A DNA stretch of 64,000 bases, from assembly GCA_028284225.1 (NCBI GenBank), contig JANQSD010000023.1:62001-126000 (forward strand). Direction: 5' to 3'. Positions within the stretch are counted from its first letter, which is position 1. Each line of letters begins with the position of its first letter. Both the position numbers and the translations under genes were made by a program. Of the stretch, positions 2-14,669 are shown one piece after another. The notes beneath the pieces are model-generated. The model worked only from the letters and a program-made list of their open reading frames with translations. It did no database searches and was not told the origin of the DNA. The DNA is from Arenicellales bacterium. GTDB lineage: Bacteria; Pseudomonadota; Gammaproteobacteria; Arenicellales; JAHEKD01.

Positions 2-1444
2 CTGGGTCATATCAGTTCAACTGTTTCTAAACCCACTTACCTGCGTTCGGATCTTTCGCCAGGTATTGTTCATATTGGCACCGGTAATTTTCATCGTGCT
101 CATCAGGCGTTGTATTTACACAGGCTCTTTGAGATGGGTATTGACTTCGACTGGGCGATTATTGGCTCAGGTATTAAGCGTTTTGATGAAGCAATGCGCA
201 ATCGCCTTAAGCCCCAGGACTGGTTGACAACAGTTGTGGAACTGGACCCGGTTCGCTTGTCGGCAACGGTGAGTGGTCCGATGATTGATTTCATCCCGAT
301 AGATCCGCAAATGTTAATCGAAACAATGGCGCAGCCAAATATTCGTATCGTATCGCTGACAGTAACCGAGGGCGGTTATTTTGTTGATGCTGAAAGCGGC
401 GGATTTAACCATCAGCATCCCGATATCATCGCCGATATAGAGTATCCAGATTCTCCAAAAACCGTATTCGGAATCATTATTGCCGCTTTGATGAAACGGC
501 GTGAAGCGGGGATACCCGCGTTCACAGTGATGAGCTGTGACAACCTTTCAGAAAACGGTCATGTGGCAAGACGAACAATGCTGGGTTTGGCCAAAAACAT
601 AAGCGATGAATCACATGACTGGATTGCCAGTAATGTGACGTTTCCCAATTCTATGGTGGATTGTATTACCCCGGCAACAGGTGATCGCGAGCGCAGTATT
701 GTCAGAGACAAGTTTGGTATTGAAGATTCTGCACCGGTCGTGTGTGAACCTTTTCATCAATGGGTGTTAGAGGACAATTTTGCCAACGGCCGGCCGGCTT
801 TGGAAAAGGTTGGTGTTCAATTCGTTGAAGATGTAGCGCCCTATGAACTGATGAAGCTGCGTATCCTCAATGGCAGCCATGCAGCCATTTCCTACCCGTC
901 TGCATTGATGGATATATACTACGTACATGACGCAATACGCGACCGGTTGATCAAAGGTTATCTCGATAAATTGGTTCATGAGGAAATCATTCCTACTATT
1001 CCGCAAATTTATGGTTTCAGTTTTGATCACTATTATGAAGTGAGTCTTGAGCGGTTTTCCAACGAAGCCATCGGCGATACCATTCCGCGACTTTGTTTTG
1101 ATGGTTCGAATCGCCAACCAAAATTCATTCTACCGACGCTACAGGTGCGACTTGATGCCGGTCATAGTGTTGAAGGTCTGGCACTGGAGTCTGCATTGTG
1201 GTGCCGCTATTGCTACGGTAAAAGTGACAGCGGAAGGAAGATCGAAGACAACGATCCACACTGGTATCAATTGACCTTAAAGTCAACCTTGGCAAAGGAA
1301 GACCCACTTGTCTGGCTACAAATGGATGATATTTATGGCCCGCTTTCGAATAATGCGGTTTTTAGAGGTGCTTTCACTAACGCATTAAATACACTGTGGC
1401 GTGATGGAACAAAAGCAACGCTTGAGGCTTATCTGTCAACTTAA
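2..1444 (+). CDS. Mannitol dehydrogenase family oxidoreductase (5' partial)
   Basis: NAD(P)-dependent polyol/hexuronate dehydrogenase of the long-chain mannitol dehydrogenase family (mannitol 2-dehydrogenase or fructuronate reductase). The frame is open from base 2, and the residues before the first possible start (a TTG at 110) already carry the family's dinucleotide-binding start, VHIGTGNFHRAHQAL, so the gene begins before the window. The family catalytic signature with Lys, Asn and His is visible as KLRILNGSHAAI around 850-890. The neighbouring polyol-type binding protein, fructokinase and Entner-Doudoroff genes favour oxidation of mannitol or a related polyol to fructose in the cytoplasm. 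Fructuronate reductase cannot be excluded, because the two activities are not separable by eye. The gene ends at TAA 1442-1444. Confidence 0.9.
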   Translation: MGHISSTVSKPTYLRSDLSPGIVHIGTGNFHRAHQALYLHRLFEMGIDFDWAIIGSGIKRFDEAMRNRLKPQDWLTTVVELDPVRLSATVSGPMIDFIPIDPQMLIETMAQPNIRIVSLTVTEGGYFVDAESGGFNHQHPDIIADIEYPDSPKTVFGIIIAALMKRREAGIPAFTVMSCDNLSENGHVARRTMLGLAKNISDESHDWIASNVTFPNSMVDCITPATGDRERSIVRDKFGIEDSAPVVCEPFHQWVLEDNFANGRPALEKVGVQFVEDVAPYELMKLRILNGSHAAISYPSALMDIYYVHDAIRDRLIKGYLDKLVHEEIIPTIPQIYGFSFDHYYEVSLERFSNEAIGDTIPRLCFDGSNRQPKFILPTLQVRLDAGHSVEGLALESALWCRYCYGKSDSGRKIEDNDPHWYQLTLKSTLAKEDPLVWLQMDDIYGPLSNNAVFRGAFTNALNTLWRDGTKATLEAYLST

Positions 1445-5325: not shown

Positions 5326-6354
5326 TTAATATGTAAAGAGCTTACTTAATGATGCGTCAACACCGATAGAGATGGCATCGCCGCCGAATCCACCGTCTTC
5401 GGCATCACTGTCATAGTCGATGTACTGCACAAACAAACCAACATGATCAGTCAGGGAGTAATTTGCCAATAAAGTGGTTGCCGCACCTTCATCATCCGAT
5501 GTTTCACCTGCCAGATTCGCATCATCTTCGAAAACAGTATGTCCGAGTTTAAACGTCCAGTCATTTAACGCATATGAAACACCTAATCCCGCTACTGTAA
5601 AATCATCGAAGCTTTCATCCTGATGGGTGCCAAACACAGCAAAATCACCAAAACCAACTTGAAAACCGAGAGACGTTAATTCCAGCTCGCCGGTATAAAA
5701 CTCATCAACATCAAACCGTGATAAGCCTACATAAACATTGTCTGTTAGATAATTAATGCCGAATGTAGTCGCATCAATATCCTCACTTTGTTCGCCATTG
5801 GTCGTCACCTCAGTTACAGGGTCAGTGGATTCTTCGGTGAAGGCATCAGCTGCTACCTGTGCGTAGCCATGGAATCCACTAAAGCTGGGTGTTACGTACG
5901 ATATAGTATTGCCAATTCTGTCAGGGCCACGTAAAAATACACCAGAATCATTGCGAAACTGGTCCATCTTTTTAGTATCTACCAACCCATTGTTTTGTCG
6001 TCCAAAGATAAATTCGCCAAAATGACCTTGCAGATTAATCTGTGCTTTTCGCACGCGTGCATCTCCAGAATCAACATCATCAGTTGCCAGTGAGTTCAAG
6101 GGAAGGTCGTATTCGATTTGCCAGCGTGTTTTAAAATCGTTAAATTTTTCTACAGGGTGAGTGCCTTTCATCCCAATTCTGGCTTTGTCGACGAATGTAT
6201 CATGATCGATTCCATCACGGTCAACAGATCGAACCTCAAGTTCACCGTAAATCTCGAATTTTTTATCTGTGTTCTCATCGGCTAGGGTCGGATTACACAG
6301 TAATCCAAAGCTTAAACATCCAACAACCAGAAGTTTTGAGTTGACATCCTGCAT
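5326..6354 (-). CDS. Outer-membrane porin (Gram-negative general porin type)
   Basis: Outer-membrane beta-barrel channel of 342 residues. There is a signal peptide (about residues 1-25, cut after NPTLA) and then a mature chain that starts with a strand typical of family-4 general porins (KFEIYGELEVRS). It also shows the FGRQNNGLVD turn near residue 135 and alternating hydrophobic strands throughout. The last residue is Tyr rather than the usual Phe, which is still an aromatic C-terminal sorting residue. It probably admits the sugar or polyol handled by the surrounding genes. The upstream region carries three copies of the TTAATAATT motif that may bind the ROK regulator encoded further right. 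It is followed by its own terminator. Confidence 0.85.
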   Translation of the reverse strand: MQDVNSKLLVVGCLSFGLLCNPTLADENTDKKFEIYGELEVRSVDRDGIDHDTFVDKARIGMKGTHPVEKFNDFKTRWQIEYDLPLNSLATDDVDSGDARVRKAQINLQGHFGEFIFGRQNNGLVDTKKMDQFRNDSGVFLRGPDRIGNTISYVTPSFSGFHGYAQVAADAFTEESTDPVTEVTTNGEQSEDIDATTFGINYLTDNVYVGLSRFDVDEFYTGELELTSLGFQVGFGDFAVFGTHQDESFDDFTVAGLGVSYALNDWTFKLGHTVFEDDANLAGETSDDEGAATTLLANYSLTDHVGLFVQYIDYDSDAEDGGFGGDAISIGVDASLSKLFTY

Positions 6355-6392
6355 TTTTTGTCTCCTATCTAAAATAAATAAATAATAATGAA

Positions 6393-6460
6393 TTAATAAT
6401 TAAAATTTACCTGATTCTCTTATTAAAATCAATTAATAATTAAACATGATTTAATAATTA
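6393..6460. promoter_or_regulatory. Putative ROK operators upstream of the porin
   Basis: Three copies of an AT-rich motif lie between the porin and the pgi remnant: TTAATAATTAA at 6393-6403 and 6433-6443, and TTAATAATTA at 6451-6460. The same 9-base core appears as an inverted pair in front of the fructokinase gene (8409-8433). Known ROK repressors (NagC, Mlc, XylR) bind AT-rich palindromes. The assignment rests only on repetition and position; the AT-rich background makes chance copies possible. Confidence 0.4.
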
Positions 6461-6481
6461 TTTATCGATTGGAATACAATC

Positions 6482-7010
6482 ATGATGGCCGAGATGTGGA
6501 ATATACTGAATCGCCATGCAAATCGCTTAAATATAGTGTCATTACGAGAATTGTGTTCGGATCAAGCTCGTTTTTCAGCATGCTCAGTGGAGTTTGACTG
6601 CGTGTTATTTGATTACTCAAAAGAAAAGATTGATAGTCAGGCTATGCTTGAGTGACAAGAACTGGCTTCAATTTGCCAGATTGAAACAAAACGGAAAAAA
6701 TTAATCTACCAGAACAACTCCAGGTGCAACATATGGCACAGCGCGGTGGACCTCATTCGGAGTTATTGCTTGAAGGTGAGAATCCAACTCGGCAGATCGA
6801 ATCGGTATTGGTGGTTCTGATTTGGGTCCAGCCATAGTAAAGCAAGCGGTGACCTCATGGCACGATAGACCAACACTTAACTTTGTCTCCAATATTGATG
6901 GTGATCAGATTTTCAATACGCTTAAATCCTTAAATTGTGAAACAACGTTGATTGTTGTTTCTTCAAAAACCCTGGCCACTAAGGAAACAATGAAAAATTT
7001 TGAAATTAAG
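6482..7010 (+). pseudogene. pgi: Glucose-6-phosphate isomerase remnant (N-terminal part)
   Basis: Decayed start of a pgi gene, visible only by joining frames. From ATG 6482 the frame reads 57 codons, including RFSACSVEFD and LFDYSKEKID (compare RFSKFSATFD and VDYSKNRIT in E. coli Pgi), then stops at TGA 6653. After a frame change, EKIN..E...V.H.A.R is seen from 6694. About 50 codons are then missing. In a third frame, [13 protein letters not shown] (from 6798), LNFVSNIDG and [11 protein letters not shown] continue to about 7010. The catalytic C-terminal half (about 340 residues) is absent and the fragment abuts the end of the ROK gene. An internal stop, two frameshifts, a deletion and a 3' truncation mean it cannot be functional. 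A functional pgi would be expected elsewhere, because fructose 6-phosphate must become glucose 6-phosphate to enter zwf. Confidence 0.9.
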
Positions 7011-7026
7011 TTGGAAGTACATATTA

Positions 7027-8214
7027 TTATTCTGCATCTGCTATACCTTTGAAGAGAACGCCATAGTCAAGGCTGAAACTTGAGATGAGCGGTAAACAGG
7101 CGGCACCAATTGATCTGGCCTGTGATCCAATTTGGCCCTGTAGAAAAACAGTTTCGGATAAACCGGTAGTGTCTAAATCTCGATATTGTTTGCTTACCTC
7201 GTATATGATTTTTTTTCGAAGGGGGGCGGGCATAACGCCATCAATAATGATTTTCTCAAAATCAATAACTGAATTTGCACATGCGCAAGCCTGTGCAATA
7301 CCATAGGCTGATTCTTTAACCCACTCATCCATGATTTGGTCATCGAAATCCCAGCCTGTTTCATGCCACTTGAATTGAGCCGATTTGCCATTCGCTAATA
7401 CTTTTTCTTCAAGCGCACTAATCGAAGATATATAAATAAGTTGTTTTGAGTTGCCATTTAGGTCATTGACCAGCATAGAACCCAGTGCACCAGAATTGTT
7501 TAACCTTCCTGGGTAAAGCTTATTATCTATGACAATGCCACCACCAATAAACCAGCCTATAAAAAAATATAAATAACTTTCACCGGTTAATTTGTTATTA
7601 AGTGTTAATTCGGCACCGCATGCAGCCGTCGCATCGTTCATCGGAAATACAGGTAAATCTAGTTTCTCCTTAAGTTCTGTAATATGGGTATCGTCGCGCC
7701 ATTCCATTAGTTTTGTATCTGGAGTTCTGAATAATTTTTTCCATTTCCAGATTTCATTCGGCATTACAACACCAAGGCCTGCAATTCTTTTTTGATGTCC
7801 TTTAGGTACGGTTGAATACAAGCTTTGAATCGAGTCGAGGGCGAATTGAATGATCGATGATTTTTCAGGGTGAGGATATTCAAGCACTTCAATACCAATG
7901 ACTTTGCCGAGAAAATCAATTAATACCATCTCGCTACTACGGCGTCCGATTTTCAAACCCAAAGAGTAAGCACCCTTGGGATTTATAGAAAAAGGCATTG
8001 ATGGTTGCCCAACTCGTCCACGCTCAAGTTTTTCCCGTTTGACCAGCTTGTTTTTTTCAAGTTTCTTAACAATTGCTGAAACAGCTGTAGCTGAAAGGCC
8101 TGTCTTTCGAGCTATTTCTATTTTTGGAATTTTCCCGCTTTCACGAATGATTGTGAGCACAAGTCTGTCATTGTAGGCCCGTACACCTACGATATTGGTA
8201 CCACGCGATGTCAT
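7027..8214 (-). CDS. ROK-family transcriptional repressor
   Basis: Cytoplasmic DNA-binding regulator of 395 residues. A winged helix-turn-helix at residues about 18-65 ([20 protein letters not shown] is the recognition region) is followed by a ROK sugar-binding domain with an ATPase-like start ([19 protein letters not shown]) and [14 protein letters not shown] near residue 220. The Cys-rich zinc motif found in many ROK proteins (CxCGxxGC) is not visible. This divergence is common in regulators. It probably represses the fructokinase/porin/Entner-Doudoroff genes until a sugar or sugar phosphate binds. Shared AT-rich repeats on both sides of the gene (6393-6460 and 8409-8433) are candidate operators. 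It is divergently oriented to the fructokinase. Confidence 0.88.
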
Positions 8215-8688: not shown

Positions 8689-9648
8689 ATGTTTTTAGTC
8701 TGTGGCGAAGCCTTATTTGATATTTTTCCTGAAGATTCGAATAAGATCAGTAGTATAAAACTTGATGCCAGGGCAGGTGGTTCTCCCTTTAATGTGGCCA
8801 TTGGGCTTTCGCGTCTTAAAGTACATTCTGCGTTATTAACAGGCATTTCAAAAGATATGCTGGGCGAAAAATTGACTTCGGTGTTGGTTCGTGAAGGTGT
8901 GTCTACTCGGTACCTTATACGAAATGGAAGGCGCACGACGCTCAGTCTTGTTGGATTAGATGCATCGGGTTCGCCTTCTTATTCATTTTATGGTGTTGGT
9001 TCCGCAGACTGTGGTGTCAAATATAAACATCTGCCGATGATTGGCAGTGAAGTCAAGGGGTTGCATTTTGGTTCTTATTCAACCGTTGTCAGACCAGTTG
9101 CAAAAGCATTTGCCAAACTGGCCAGTAAGCAGAAGGATAATTTCATCTCCTATGACCCAAACATCCGCTTAACCATCGAGCCAAATCTGAATGTCTGGCG
9201 TGCCGGAGTTAAACGTTTCGCCAGTTGTGCTGACATCATAAAAATAAGCAGGGAAGACTACGATTTGTTATATGCCGAAGAAAATCCAGCTAAAAAAGTA
9301 CAGCAGTGGTTTGATTATGGAGTGAAACTGGTCATTCTTACAGATGGTGACAAACACATTAGAGCCTGGAGTGACAGTGGTTTTGAGTTGAGCATTACAC
9401 CACCGAGTTTCAATGTGGTAGATACAGTTGGTGCTGGTGATACTTTTCAGGCTGCGCTACTCAAATGTCTACTGCAGTATGATAATCCTAAACAAGCCGT
9501 CACTTCGATCGATCAATCCCGATTAGAATCAATGCTCAATTATGGCGCTATGGCTGCTGCCCTGACCTGTACACGCCGCGGAGCTGATCTGCCCACATTA
9601 GAGGAGGTAGATTCAATAATAAGTGAGTGTTCGCCAGACAATAATTAA
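8689..9648 (+). CDS. PfkB-family sugar kinase, probable fructokinase
   Basis: ATP-dependent cytoplasmic sugar kinase of 319 residues (ribokinase/PfkB family). The N-terminal signature lies around residues 25-45 (ARAGGSPFNVAIGLSRL). The C-terminal signature DTVGAGDTFQAAL holds the anion hole and catalytic Asp251. The start CGEALFDIFPED is typical of bacterial fructokinases, which turn fructose into fructose 6-phosphate. This follows naturally from a mannitol dehydrogenase producing fructose. 2-keto-3-deoxygluconate kinase is an alternative, but in this cluster the Entner-Doudoroff intermediate is already phosphorylated, so fructokinase fits better. It is preceded by the putative ROK operator/promoter and followed by the glgC remnant. 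Confidence 0.82.
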   Translation: MFLVCGEALFDIFPEDSNKISSIKLDARAGGSPFNVAIGLSRLKVHSALLTGISKDMLGEKLTSVLVREGVSTRYLIRNGRRTTLSLVGLDASGSPSYSFYGVGSADCGVKYKHLPMIGSEVKGLHFGSYSTVVRPVAKAFAKLASKQKDNFISYDPNIRLTIEPNLNVWRAGVKRFASCADIIKISREDYDLLYAEENPAKKVQQWFDYGVKLVILTDGDKHIRAWSDSGFELSITPPSFNVVDTVGAGDTFQAALLKCLLQYDNPKQAVTSIDQSRLESMLNYGAMAAALTCTRRGADLPTLEEVDSIISECSPDNN

Positions 9649-9955: not shown

Positions 9956-11428
9956 ATGATGACTTCAAAGATAATTCCGGTAGACCCGTTTGATTTAGTG
10001 ATATTTGGTATTACTGGTGATCTGGCCCGCCGAAAGTTGATTCCGGTGCTTTATTATCGTTTCATTGATGGCCAGATTCCAAAAAATTCAAGAATCATCG
10101 GTCTGGCACGCTCCGAACTGACCAACGAGCAATTTAGAAATCAGTCCCTTGAAGCATTAAAGCAAACAGTATCAGAAAAAGATTTTGATTCAGAGCAGGT
10201 AAATCATTTCATTTCCTGTATTCACTACATTAAAAACGATGTAAACAGTGATGAAGACTGGGACACGCTGCAGTCGCTATTGAAAAATGCACCCAATACA
10301 GTTCAGGCATTCTATCTTTCGGTGGCGCCCGGTTTATTTGCCCCAATTGTTGAGCAGCTGGGGCGCCTAAATCTTGCTGAAAATTCCAGGCTGGTCGTAG
10401 AAAAACCGTTTGGTCATGATTTGGCTAGCGCTAAAAAACTTCAGTATCAAATAGGCAACGTCTACAAAGAAGAAGCCATTTACAGGATCGATCATTATCT
10501 GGGCAAAGAGACGGTTCAGAATTTAATGGCGCTGCGGTTTGCTAACAAACTGTTCGAACCTCTTTGGAACAGCAATCACATTGATCATATACAAATAACC
10601 GCAGCAGAATCCCTAGGTGTTGAAGGCCGCGGTGAATATTATGACAACATCGGTGCCATGCGCGATATGGTACAAAATCATCTGCTGCAATTATTGTGTT
10701 TAACCGCGATGGAGCCCCCGTATAAATTTGATGCTGATGCTATGCGTGATGAAAAGCTCAAGGTGTTGCGTGCATTGCAGCCATTGATGGGAGAACAGGC
10801 GCTGAGAAATACAGTCCGTGGACAATACCTGGGTGCACCAGATAAACCTGGGTATTTGGAAGAGTGCCACAACCAAGGCAGTCAGACTGAGACTTATGTT
10901 GCGTTAAAAGTAAAGATTAACTCTTGGCGTTGGGCGGGGACACCATTTTACCTGCGTACGGGAAAACGGCTGCGATCACAAATGGCAGAAATCGTGATTA
11001 CATTCAGATCGACACCACACTCGATCTTTGGTCAGATAGACACACCGATTTGGCCCAACATATTGGTGATTCGGCTACAGCCAGATGAGGGACTGAATTT
11101 ATCCATTACCACCAAAGATCCAGGGCCAGGTGGTTTTCGCACAAGAGAAACGCCACTGGATATGACATTCGCTGATAATTCAGGTGATGACTGGCGTATG
11201 CCCGATGCTTATGAACGCCTGATTATGGACGTGATACGCGGAAATCAAACCCTGTTCATGCGCGATGATGAGGTTGAAGCAGCATGGCAATGGATTGATC
11301 CCATTATACAGGCCTGGAGAAATTCCGGTACCGCACCTGAAAGCTATGATTCTTACAGTTCAGGTCCGACCGGCGCGGTCGAATTAATTGCCCGTGATCA
11401 CCGGCGCTGGCGGGATGTAATTGTATGA
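9956..11428 (+). CDS. zwf: Glucose-6-phosphate 1-dehydrogenase
   Basis: Oxidises glucose 6-phosphate to 6-phosphogluconolactone with NADP(+) or NAD(+), the first step of the Entner-Doudoroff and oxidative pentose phosphate routes. The product has 490 residues, a normal length. The nucleotide-binding start FGITGDLARRKLIP (residues 17-30) and the active-site signature RIDHYLGKE with catalytic His near residue 180 are intact, as are EKPFGHD and the substrate-binding MRDMVQNHLLQ. Two consecutive ATG codons open the gene (9956, 9959), with GATGGAA upstream. It is the first gene of zwf-pgl-edd-eda and overlaps pgl by 4 bases (ATGA), indicating translational coupling. Confidence 0.97.
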   Translation: MMTSKIIPVDPFDLVIFGITGDLARRKLIPVLYYRFIDGQIPKNSRIIGLARSELTNEQFRNQSLEALKQTVSEKDFDSEQVNHFISCIHYIKNDVNSDEDWDTLQSLLKNAPNTVQAFYLSVAPGLFAPIVEQLGRLNLAENSRLVVEKPFGHDLASAKKLQYQIGNVYKEEAIYRIDHYLGKETVQNLMALRFANKLFEPLWNSNHIDHIQITAAESLGVEGRGEYYDNIGAMRDMVQNHLLQLLCLTAMEPPYKFDADAMRDEKLKVLRALQPLMGEQALRNTVRGQYLGAPDKPGYLEECHNQGSQTETYVALKVKINSWRWAGTPFYLRTGKRLRSQMAEIVITFRSTPHSIFGQIDTPIWPNILVIRLQPDEGLNLSITTKDPGPGGFRTRETPLDMTFADNSGDDWRMPDAYERLIMDVIRGNQTLFMRDDEVEAAWQWIDPIIQAWRNSGTAPESYDSYSSGPTGAVELIARDHRRWRDVIV

Positions 11429-12105
11429 ATCAATATACTGACAGGGTCGAGCAGGCTAACCGGCTGGCAGAACTGGTCGCCGAGCAACTGGCAGGCGCGA
11501 TAACGAAAAAAGGATGTGCATTACTGGTTGTTGCCGGTGGATCTACGCCGGAACTATTTTTAAACAAACTTTCCAATTTGGATATTGATTGGTCCAGTGT
11601 GATCGTCATTCCTACTGATGAACGTTGGGTGGGTTCAACTCACCCTCGCTCAAATGACCGTTTTCTTCATAAGAATCTTAAAATCAATCGGGCGTCAGAG
11701 ATAACAATTGTGCCGCTCTACGTGGCTGACCGGTCACCGGAGCATGCCGTGGATGCACTTGAAGCTCGTCTGAACGAGTTCAAGGCTAATCCTGATGTGT
11801 GCGTATTGGGCATGGGTGAGGATGCACATATTGCCTCATTATTTCCAGGGGCTGAGCAGTTGCCCTCAGCACTGGATAGGCGCTCGAATATACAGGTCAT
11901 GGCAATCAACGCCTCCGGCGCGGGTGAGCCAAGAATTACCCTGACTCTGGCTAAATTACTCAGTGCTACACATCTGCATCTGCTGATTTGTGGTCCCGCC
12001 AAACTTGAAACATTAAGAAGAGCTAGACAGCCAGGCAGTACTGAACAGATGCCTGTGAGGGCAATACTGGGCAATGACGCCCTGGAAATACACTATGCCG
12101 ACTAA
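11425..12105 (+). CDS. pgl: 6-phosphogluconolactonase (DevB type)
   Basis: Hydrolyses 6-phosphogluconolactone to 6-phosphogluconate in the cytoplasm. The 226-residue product has the DevB/SOL family marks: VVAGGSTPELFLNKL near residues 32-46, PTDERWV near 65 and CVLGMGEDAHIASLFPG near 125-141. The start codon overlaps the zwf stop as ATGA. The gene sits between zwf and edd as expected for a coupled Entner-Doudoroff operon. The 72-base gap to edd contains no other feature. Confidence 0.95.
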   Translation: MNQYTDRVEQANRLAELVAEQLAGAITKKGCALLVVAGGSTPELFLNKLSNLDIDWSSVIVIPTDERWVGSTHPRSNDRFLHKNLKINRASEITIVPLYVADRSPEHAVDALEARLNEFKANPDVCVLGMGEDAHIASLFPGAEQLPSALDRRSNIQVMAINASGAGEPRITLTLAKLLSATHLHLLICGPAKLETLRRARQPGSTEQMPVRAILGNDALEIHYAD

Positions 12106-12177: not shown

Positions 12178-14004
12178 ATGCAAGTGAACAAAATATTACA
12201 AACCGTTACGCAAAGAATCGAGAAGCGCTCAGAGAAAACACGATCCGACTATATGAAACGTGTTATCTCAGCCCGAGAAAAAGGCGTGGCGCGGGCCCAT
12301 TTGTCATGTTCCAACATGGCACATGCCTATGCCAGTGCAGATAGTACTGAAAAATCCAGGTTGATCACCGATCGGGTGCCAAACTTGGGGATTATTACCG
12401 CCTATAACGACATGCTTTCGGCACATCAGCCATTTAAGGATTTTCCAGATGTAATCAAACAGGCGGCGCGTGAGGCAGGTGCGACAGCGCAGGTTGCCGG
12501 TGGTGTACCGGCAATGTGTGACGGTGTCACTCAGGGTCAGCCTGGTATGGAATTATCGCTGTTTTCAAGGGATATCATTGCTATGGCAGCGGGCGTAGCA
12601 ATGTCCCATAATTGCTTTGATGCCAGTGTCTATTTAGGGGTTTGTGACAAGATTATCCCCGGACTAGTGATTGCGGCGGCAACCTTTGGTCATGTGCCGG
12701 CTGTGTTTTTACCAGCAGGTCCAATGGTTTCGGGTATCTCCAATGATGAAAAAGCCGAAGCCAGAAAGAAATATGCCAACGGTGAGATAGACAGAGCGGC
12801 CTTGCTTGAATCAGAAATGAAATCCTATCATGGCCCGGGAACATGTACTTTTTATGGAACTGCAAATTCCAATCAAATGCTAATGGAAGTGATGGGATTA
12901 CATTTGCCAGGTGCTTCTTTTGTTAATCCCAATACCGAGCTTCGTGATGCTTACACCAAGGCCGGAGCCGTTCAGGCGCTGAAAATCACTGCACTGGGTA
13001 ATAATTATATTGCGGCGGCAGAAGTATTGAGCATTAAAACTTTTGTTAATGGCATTGTGGGATTACATGCAACCGGTGGTTCCACCAATCTGGTATTACA
13101 CATGACTGCAATGGCCGACGCGGCCGGCATTAAAATCACATCAGATGATTTTTCTGATCTTTCCGCGGTAACACCGCTAATTGCCAGGGTATATCCAAAC
13201 GGTAAAGCTGATGTCAACCATTTTCATGCTGCGGGAGGCTTGCAGTACTTAATTTACGAGCTTTGCAATGCTGGCTTATTACATGAGGACGTGATGACAG
13301 TGATGGGTCGAGGGCTTGAACAATATTTTTATGAAGCCAAACTTGATTCATCGAAAAAACTGCAATGGCAAAAAGAATTCCCTCAAATTCATGACAGTGA
13401 GATACTCAAAACGGTGACCTCTCCGTTTCAGAAAACAGGTGGGCTTGTCAGTTTGAACGGTAACATCGGCGAAGCCGTCATCAAAACATCTGCGGTGCCG
13501 CAAGATCGTCATGTGATCGAAGCGCCGGCAATGGTCTTTCATGATCAGGAATCGGTCAAACAGGCTTTCGCAAACGGCAAACTGGGACGCGATTTTGTAT
13601 GTGTGGTTCGTTTTCAGGGTCCATGCGCGAACGGGATGCCGGAGTTGCATGGTCTGACACCAATTCTGTCAATATTACAGGAACGCGGTTATAAAGTGGC
13701 CCTGTTAACCGACGGGCGTATGTCAGGTGCAAGCGGTAAAATACCGGCTGCCATTCACGTTAGTCCCGAAGCGGCTAAAGGTGGTGCTATTGCAAAAATC
13801 CGTGATGGTGACATTATACGAATTGATGCAAATAATGGCCTACTGGAATTAAAATCAGATACTAACTGGCGGACTCGTGAAAATACAACGACTGATTTAA
13901 GCGGTAATGAATACGGTAATGGTCGGGAATTATTTCATTTGTTCAGACAATCCGTCTCAAGTGCCTCAAGCGGTGCATCTTGTCTAAGTGACTCATCGTT
14001 TTAA
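12178..14004 (+). CDS. edd: Phosphogluconate dehydratase
   Basis: Iron-sulfur dehydratase that converts 6-phosphogluconate to 2-keto-3-deoxy-6-phosphogluconate, the committed Entner-Doudoroff step. The product has 608 residues, the standard length for Edd in the IlvD/Edd family. Conserved blocks include AYNDMLSAHQPF (about 72-83), MCDGVTQGQPGMELSLFSRD (about 118-137), CDKIIPG, and TDGRMSGASGKIPAAIHVSPE (split around residues 511-531). The cysteines in MCDGV, GVCDKI and GPCANG are placed as expected for the Fe-S cluster ligands. It lies between pgl and eda on the same strand. Confidence 0.97.
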   Translation: MQVNKILQTVTQRIEKRSEKTRSDYMKRVISAREKGVARAHLSCSNMAHAYASADSTEKSRLITDRVPNLGIITAYNDMLSAHQPFKDFPDVIKQAAREAGATAQVAGGVPAMCDGVTQGQPGMELSLFSRDIIAMAAGVAMSHNCFDASVYLGVCDKIIPGLVIAAATFGHVPAVFLPAGPMVSGISNDEKAEARKKYANGEIDRAALLESEMKSYHGPGTCTFYGTANSNQMLMEVMGLHLPGASFVNPNTELRDAYTKAGAVQALKITALGNNYIAAAEVLSIKTFVNGIVGLHATGGSTNLVLHMTAMADAAGIKITSDDFSDLSAVTPLIARVYPNGKADVNHFHAAGGLQYLIYELCNAGLLHEDVMTVMGRGLEQYFYEAKLDSSKKLQWQKEFPQIHDSEILKTVTSPFQKTGGLVSLNGNIGEAVIKTSAVPQDRHVIEAPAMVFHDQESVKQAFANGKLGRDFVCVVRFQGPCANGMPELHGLTPILSILQERGYKVALLTDGRMSGASGKIPAAIHVSPEAAKGGAIAKIRDGDIIRIDANNGLLELKSDTNWRTRENTTTDLSGNEYGNGRELFHLFRQSVSSASSGASCLSDSSF

Positions 14005-14027: not shown

Positions 14028-14669
14028 ATGATCGATAACCAGCATATATTAGAAATTTGCAGCTATGCTAAATTAATACCGGTATTAGTGATTGACGAGG
14101 TGAGTAGTGCAGTGCCGCTTGCTCAAGCATTGATGCGTGGCGGTCTGAATGTATTGGAAGTCACACTACGTACGGCTAATGCTTTACAAGCCATCCATGA
14201 AATTTCTCAACTTGATGATGTCGTTGTCGGGGCTGGAACAATTCTGAAACCTGAAGATATTGAGTTCGTAAAACAGGCCGGTGCTGTTTTTGGTGTAACG
14301 CCCGGGACAACATCAGCATTGCTGGACTCCGCCATCGAACAACAGTTTTCTTTAATTCCTGGTGTGGCTACGGTTTCAGAAGCGATGAAAGTAAATGAAA
14401 GGGGTTATTCTTTTATGAAATTTTTTCCGGCAGAGAGTGCTGGTGGTGTCAACGCGCTGACTTCATTTGCAGGGCCGTTGCCGGGCATAAGATTTTGTCC
14501 TACCGGCGGCATTACTATCGACAATGCGCCTTCCTATTTTGAGCTGGACAATGTCATTTGCGTTGGCGGGTCCTGGGTTGCACCCAAAAAATTGGTTAAC
14601 TGCGGACATTGGGACCGGATAGAAACACTGGCCAGACAAGCTAAAAATGCATTTGAAAAACACGGCTAA
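14028..14669 (+). CDS. eda: KDPG aldolase
   Basis: Class I aldolase that splits 2-keto-3-deoxy-6-phosphogluconate into pyruvate and glyceraldehyde 3-phosphate. The 213-residue chain has the family blocks PVLVIDEVSSAVPLAQAL, GLNVLEVTLRT with the catalytic Glu, GAGTIL, and the Schiff-base Lys in FMKFFPAESAGG near residue 131. The phosphate-binding PTGGI is near residue 160. It begins 23 bases after edd and is the last gene of the operon. No clear hairpin terminator follows it. Confidence 0.96.
   Translation: MIDNQHILEICSYAKLIPVLVIDEVSSAVPLAQALMRGGLNVLEVTLRTANALQAIHEISQLDDVVVGAGTILKPEDIEFVKQAGAVFGVTPGTTSALLDSAIEQQFSLIPGVATVSEAMKVNERGYSFMKFFPAESAGGVNALTSFAGPLPGIRFCPTGGITIDNAPSYFELDNVICVGGSWVAPKKLVNCGHWDRIETLARQAKNAFEKHG

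Follow-up and report, generated by a model that had tools for sequence, protein, structure and literature searches.

The glucose-6-phosphate isomerases (PGIs) closest to the genes described here include the canonical enzyme (PF00342, PRK00179/pgi), the type of Gram-positive bacteria and Thermotoga (PRK14097, PRK03868; solved structures 3ifs, 3ff1 and 2q8n), and the PGI half of PRK09533 (NF007080), a bifunctional transaldolase/phosphoglucose isomerase. In Sulfobacillus the fused form is taken, from annotation, to account for PGI activity (PMC4378227; PMC4062416). Non-orthologous gene displacement by reciprocal loss, in which one of two distant isoenzymes is kept per lineage, is a known kind of event, and the case reported here is an instructive but ordinary instance of it. 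Unlike the usual displacement, it involves two enzymes of one superfamily, and the two directions of loss are both caught within a single genus, one by a gene relic and the other by an emptied locus.

The window analysed is a stretch of 64,000 nucleotides (C10:62001-126000) from a 162-kb contig of an Arenicellales genome, here G000, which comprises 4.09 Mb in 25 contigs and is 96% complete. Within it, the remains of a canonical pgi gene adjoin intact genes of the Entner-Doudoroff (ED) pathway and an intact fructokinase-like gene, divergent from a porin gene on one side and convergent with a ROK-family regulator on the other (Table 1). Polyols are likely to enter as fructose through the product of the mannitol dehydrogenase family gene. 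A predicted multi-pass membrane protein, encoded next to a sugar-binding protein gene, looks by eye like an NCS1-type permease; at the thresholds applied, it matches nothing in NCBIfam or Pfam.

Table 1. Features of the window and of the PGI2 locus (window positions unless a contig or locus is named)
Feature	Position	Strand	Evidence or remark
Mannitol dehydrogenase family (polyol dehydrogenase)	110..1444	+	profile matches
Predicted multi-pass membrane protein, 588 aa	1974..3740	-	
Porin (Porin_4)	5326..6354	-	profile match
Porin/pgi intergenic region	6355..6481		two degenerate Mlc/NagC-like palindrome copies
Degenerate palindrome copy	6375..6399		directly upstream of relic
Degenerate palindrome copy	6433..6457		directly upstream of relic
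Canonical pgi relic	6482..7016	+	codons ~6-218 of 549
Relic segment 1, residues 6-77	6491..6706	+	frame 2, 50% identity to G001 pgi
In-frame TGA in relic	6653..6655	+	
Net deletion of ~19 nt in relic	near 6694..6706		frameshifting
Relic segment 2, residues 80-118	6694..6810	+	frame 1, 49% identity to G001 pgi
Net deletion of ~94 nt in relic	near 6801..6810		frameshifting
Relic segment 3, residues 147-218	6801..7016	+	frame 3, 67% identity to G001 pgi
ROK-family (NagC/Mlc-like) regulator	7027..8214	-	profile match
Inverted repeat TTAATAATT-N7-AATTATTAA	8409..8433		perfect copy; putative ROK operator
PfkB sugar kinase, fructokinase-like	8689..9648	+	PRK09434 142 bits, under the model's cut-off of 450
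zwf, glucose-6-phosphate dehydrogenase	9956..11428	+	TIGR00871 590 bits
pgl, 6-phosphogluconolactonase	11425..12105	+	TIGR01198 144.5 bits
edd, phosphogluconate dehydratase	12178..14004	+	TIGR01196 933 bits
eda, KDPG aldolase	14028..14669	+	TIGR01182 234 bits
PGI2, 547 aa	C7 ~12268-13911 (L004:9268-10911)	-	intact
PGI2 C-terminal domain, ~150 residues	L004:9268-9744	-	

An earlier note on this DNA had described a decayed pgi with a stop, frameshifts and a deletion, readable in three frames, devoid of its C-terminal half and lying beside intact ED genes, and the present analysis bears this description out. A tblastn search of the window with the intact pgi of G001, the only other genome of the same genus compared, returned three significant, collinear plus-strand segments covering 6491-7016, with a joint E of 1.9e-50. 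At the DNA level the relic scores 192.6, against a maximum of 33.8 among 100 shuffles, and hmmscan by itself assigns its first piece to PRK00179 pgi and its last piece to PGI (Pfam 58.9 bits, cut-off 22). The extent given earlier, the first third of the enzyme, holds for the amount of recognisable sequence, about a third of all Pgi residues, but not for its span, as these residues are spread over the first 40% of the protein. The same search found nothing of residues 219-549 (~60%) within the window, and no further pgi piece, tandem or relocated, turned up in window or genome; the ROK gene has its stop ~10 nt past the end of the relic. Since the missing 3' 60% held the GGR (GGRYS), ES-GK, GQH and ELGK motifs, no enzyme could be made from the relic even with read-through.

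A tree of 28 canonical PGIs from the order places the relic as sister to the G001 pgi (support 100/99), to which it is orthologous; next to this pair, with weak support (87/72), comes the pgi of G024, which closes a cluster ordered zwf-pgl-edd-eda-pgi. The end branch of the relic measures 0.68, compared with 0.32 for the G001 pgi, and the differences between the two are mostly synonymous, with pN/pS between 0.27 and 0.48 by segment compared with 0.12 for zwf. Together, these ratios and the doubled end branch suggest a gene that was long under purifying selection and then came under relaxed constraint. They also argue against a sequencing or assembly artefact in an organism whose pgi is in fact intact, as do the several separate lesions within one long contig, the absence of the 3' 60% and the intactness of the neighbouring genes; we regard such an artefact as extremely improbable. 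The intact G001 pgi sits behind glgA, away from the ED operon, so that the gene has to be assumed to have moved in one species or the other.

Traces of the former regulation of pgi may also survive. A perfect inverted repeat lies in the space separating the ROK regulator from the fructokinase-like gene, and the porin/pgi intergenic region holds two matches to this palindrome of at least 21/25, whereas any match occurred in 1/500 shuffles. Another copy (22/25; L165:373-397) lies upstream of zwf in G001. The shared Mlc/NagC-like palindrome is a putative operator of the adjacent ROK regulator, and because copies occur at the relic, in the gap between the ROK and fructokinase-like genes and at the G001 zwf, pgi would seem to have belonged to a ROK-controlled sugar regulon.

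A search of the whole genome for another pgi yielded no second canonical copy in the 4.09 Mb at 96% completeness and no protein of the bact-PGI_C type or of the Pyrobaculum PGI/PMI type, but it did reveal a distant relative on another contig, which we call PGI2. The relic and PGI2 are the only two PF00342 matches in the genome, the latter at 54.9 bits (cut-off 22). PGI2 is a stand-alone counterpart of the PGI half of PRK09533 (positions 403-947; 463 bits), with which it shares the conserved motifs and a C-terminal domain; lacking the transaldolase half and staying below the full-length cut-off of 712 bits, it falls outside PRK09533 itself. Its predicted structure (pLDDT 85.1, pTM 0.88) has the PGI fold: residues 1-394 superpose on PGIs of the Gram-positive type with Z of ~33 (3ifs: Z 32.9, 367 residues, rmsd 3.9), and the Gram-positive/Thermotoga enzymes are the closest solved folds (Z ~32-33). 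PGI2 shares the NPFD-P-V---K motif with these enzymes, from which it differs in its low identity (~24%) and an additional SIS-like C-terminal domain. The catalytic Arg, Glu and Lys motifs are present as GGRFS, ESTGK and NPFDEPNVGENK, and the family profile aligns them to those of solved PGIs. All 12 PGI2 members taken from the order carry SKSGxT, GGR(Y/F)S or PGRYS, ESxGK and PFxxPxVxxxK. Among 69 relatives from many phyla, chosen with the ESxGK motif as a requirement, every one carries GGR and ESxGK, 62 have SKSGxTxE and 41 show the Lys motif in a stricter form; judged by reading-frame length, about half of these loci from other phyla seem to be stand-alone.

The remaining catalytic residue is less straightforward. 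In known PGIs the ring-opening histidine has its usual place in the large domain, after ES-GK. PGI2 has none at this place, and an LHSTGQ motif occurs in the extra C-terminal domain, which carries a nearly invariant GPRYLHSTGQLHKGG. Folded alone (pLDDT 89.6), this domain is SIS-like and has PGI chains as its top matches (1zzg, Z 13.9); profile comparison gave no signal of a PGI origin (E 0.72), and a sequence search of solved structures found no counterpart, so that fold comparison is what would suggest its derivation from PGI. As a hypothesis, the domain may supply the ring-opening histidine. It is possible, although we would not go as far as to call it probable, that PGI2 is a three-SIS-domain enzyme with Arg, Glu and Lys in domains 1-2 and His in a duplicated third, a structurally distinct form that has repeatedly swapped with canonical PGI and is mutually exclusive with it throughout the order.

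Among 92 genomes of the order, which are related and do not count as independent events, canonical PGI is found in 26, PGI2 in 57 (G000 included), neither in nine and two intact kinds in none, an either/or pattern in which G000 is the only genome with a relic of the other kind. Because the kind differs among genomes within one family (f1, f2, f9) or genus (g19), the switch must have happened several times. Genus g19 offers a parallel to the G000/G001 pair, seen when L173 is set against L174 and L067: two genomes (G060, G061) have the order comEC-galE-PGI2-glyQ; in a third (G062) comEC adjoins glyQ, without galE and PGI2, and a canonical pgi lies elsewhere. Two full-length canonical PGI genes (C281, C155) occur in G014, another member of the order. 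The nine genomes in which the two models detect neither kind (G072-G076, G079, G089, G090 and G092) are either incomplete assemblies or carriers of a third type.

Motifs and predicted fold lead us to infer that PGI2 is an active PGI. Were it instead to act on something else, for example another sugar phosphate of lipopolysaccharide (LPS), the route from fructose 6-phosphate (F6P) to zwf would be blocked, leaving only glucose or gluconate to be served by the ED operon. The position of the gene among LPS core genes and galE would fit such a role, as would the displacement of the His motif to the third domain, and no assay of stand-alone PGI2 was found in the literature searched. Against it stand the whole PGI fold with its motifs, the either/or distribution with canonical PGI, and the 57 of 92 genomes that have PGI2 without an intact canonical PGI and would need glucose 6-phosphate (G6P) from F6P; annotation, moreover, credits the fused form with PGI activity (PMC4378227). 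We therefore judge a non-PGI role unlikely. The earlier note had offered either a second copy or a blocked flow from fructose to zwf. The first alternative holds, the second enzyme being a distant relative and not another canonical copy; blocked flow was rejected as the default reading, because PGI2 is present with PGI fold and motifs. The corollary of an ED operon for glucose or gluconate only is likewise unsupported, given PGI2 and a phosphofructokinase-family gene in the genome that would give F6P another exit.

The genomic setting of PGI2 bears on its history. In G000 the gene is flanked by rhlB and a glycosyltransferase/Kdo-kinase gene, beyond which come galE and heptosyltransferases, and rho is close by; matching neighbourhoods in families f2, f4, f6 and f8 bring the total to five families of the order, and this place is therefore ancestral. 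In G001, rho, trxA, rhlB and the glycosyltransferase/kinase gene (67% identical) lie on a 6.7-kb contig, with only a 138-aa glyoxalase-like gene between the last two and no trace of PGI2 at that site; a family search did not find it elsewhere in G001, a genome 75% complete. Thus PGI2 survives in G000 alongside a wrecked pgi, and in G001, where pgi survives, PGI2 is missing from an otherwise intact locus. Probably, the ancestor of the genus carried both isomerases, and each species lost the one that the other kept. Alternatively, the two were never together in that ancestor and G000 regained PGI2 by transfer after its pgi had decayed, a course favoured by the wide occurrence of fused or stand-alone PGI2 in other phyla. 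We consider it very improbable, as PGI2 has the same surroundings (rho, rhlB, glycosyltransferase/kinase, galE) across five families, and the G001 site is that same locus with PGI2 missing.

We thus think it likely that a redundant ancestral pair underwent opposite losses in G000 and G001, with PGI2 replacing pgi in the former. The genus ancestor would have had two glucose-6-phosphate isomerases, a canonical pgi in the ROK-controlled sugar regulon beside the ED operon and the distantly related PGI2, kept in the rho-rhlB-LPS core/galE neighbourhood. Redundancy would then have allowed one to be lost per lineage: in G000 pgi would have decayed through a stop, frameshifts and loss of the catalytic 60%, leaving all F6P/G6P interconversion to PGI2, and in G001 PGI2 would have been deleted and pgi kept. 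The activity of PGI2, the presence of both genes at once in the ancestor and redundancy as the cause are the inferred parts of this scheme. Weighing against it are the displaced ring-opening histidine, whose candidate LHS-GQ motif lies in the extra domain; the naming of PRK09533 from the fused form, whose full-length cut-off PGI2 misses; the incompleteness of G001, which could hold PGI2 elsewhere; and the gene move assumed from the glgA-linked position of the G001 pgi.

The displacement of an enzyme of central metabolism would here be caught in progress, one genome holding the wreck together with the alternative and its congener the reverse. It also serves as a warning that a broken pgi need not mean a blocked pathway. 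Finally, stand-alone proteins of the PRK09533 type, which annotation usually knows only as the fused bifunctional enzyme, may be the sole PGI of many bacteria, for which this locus provides a testable case.
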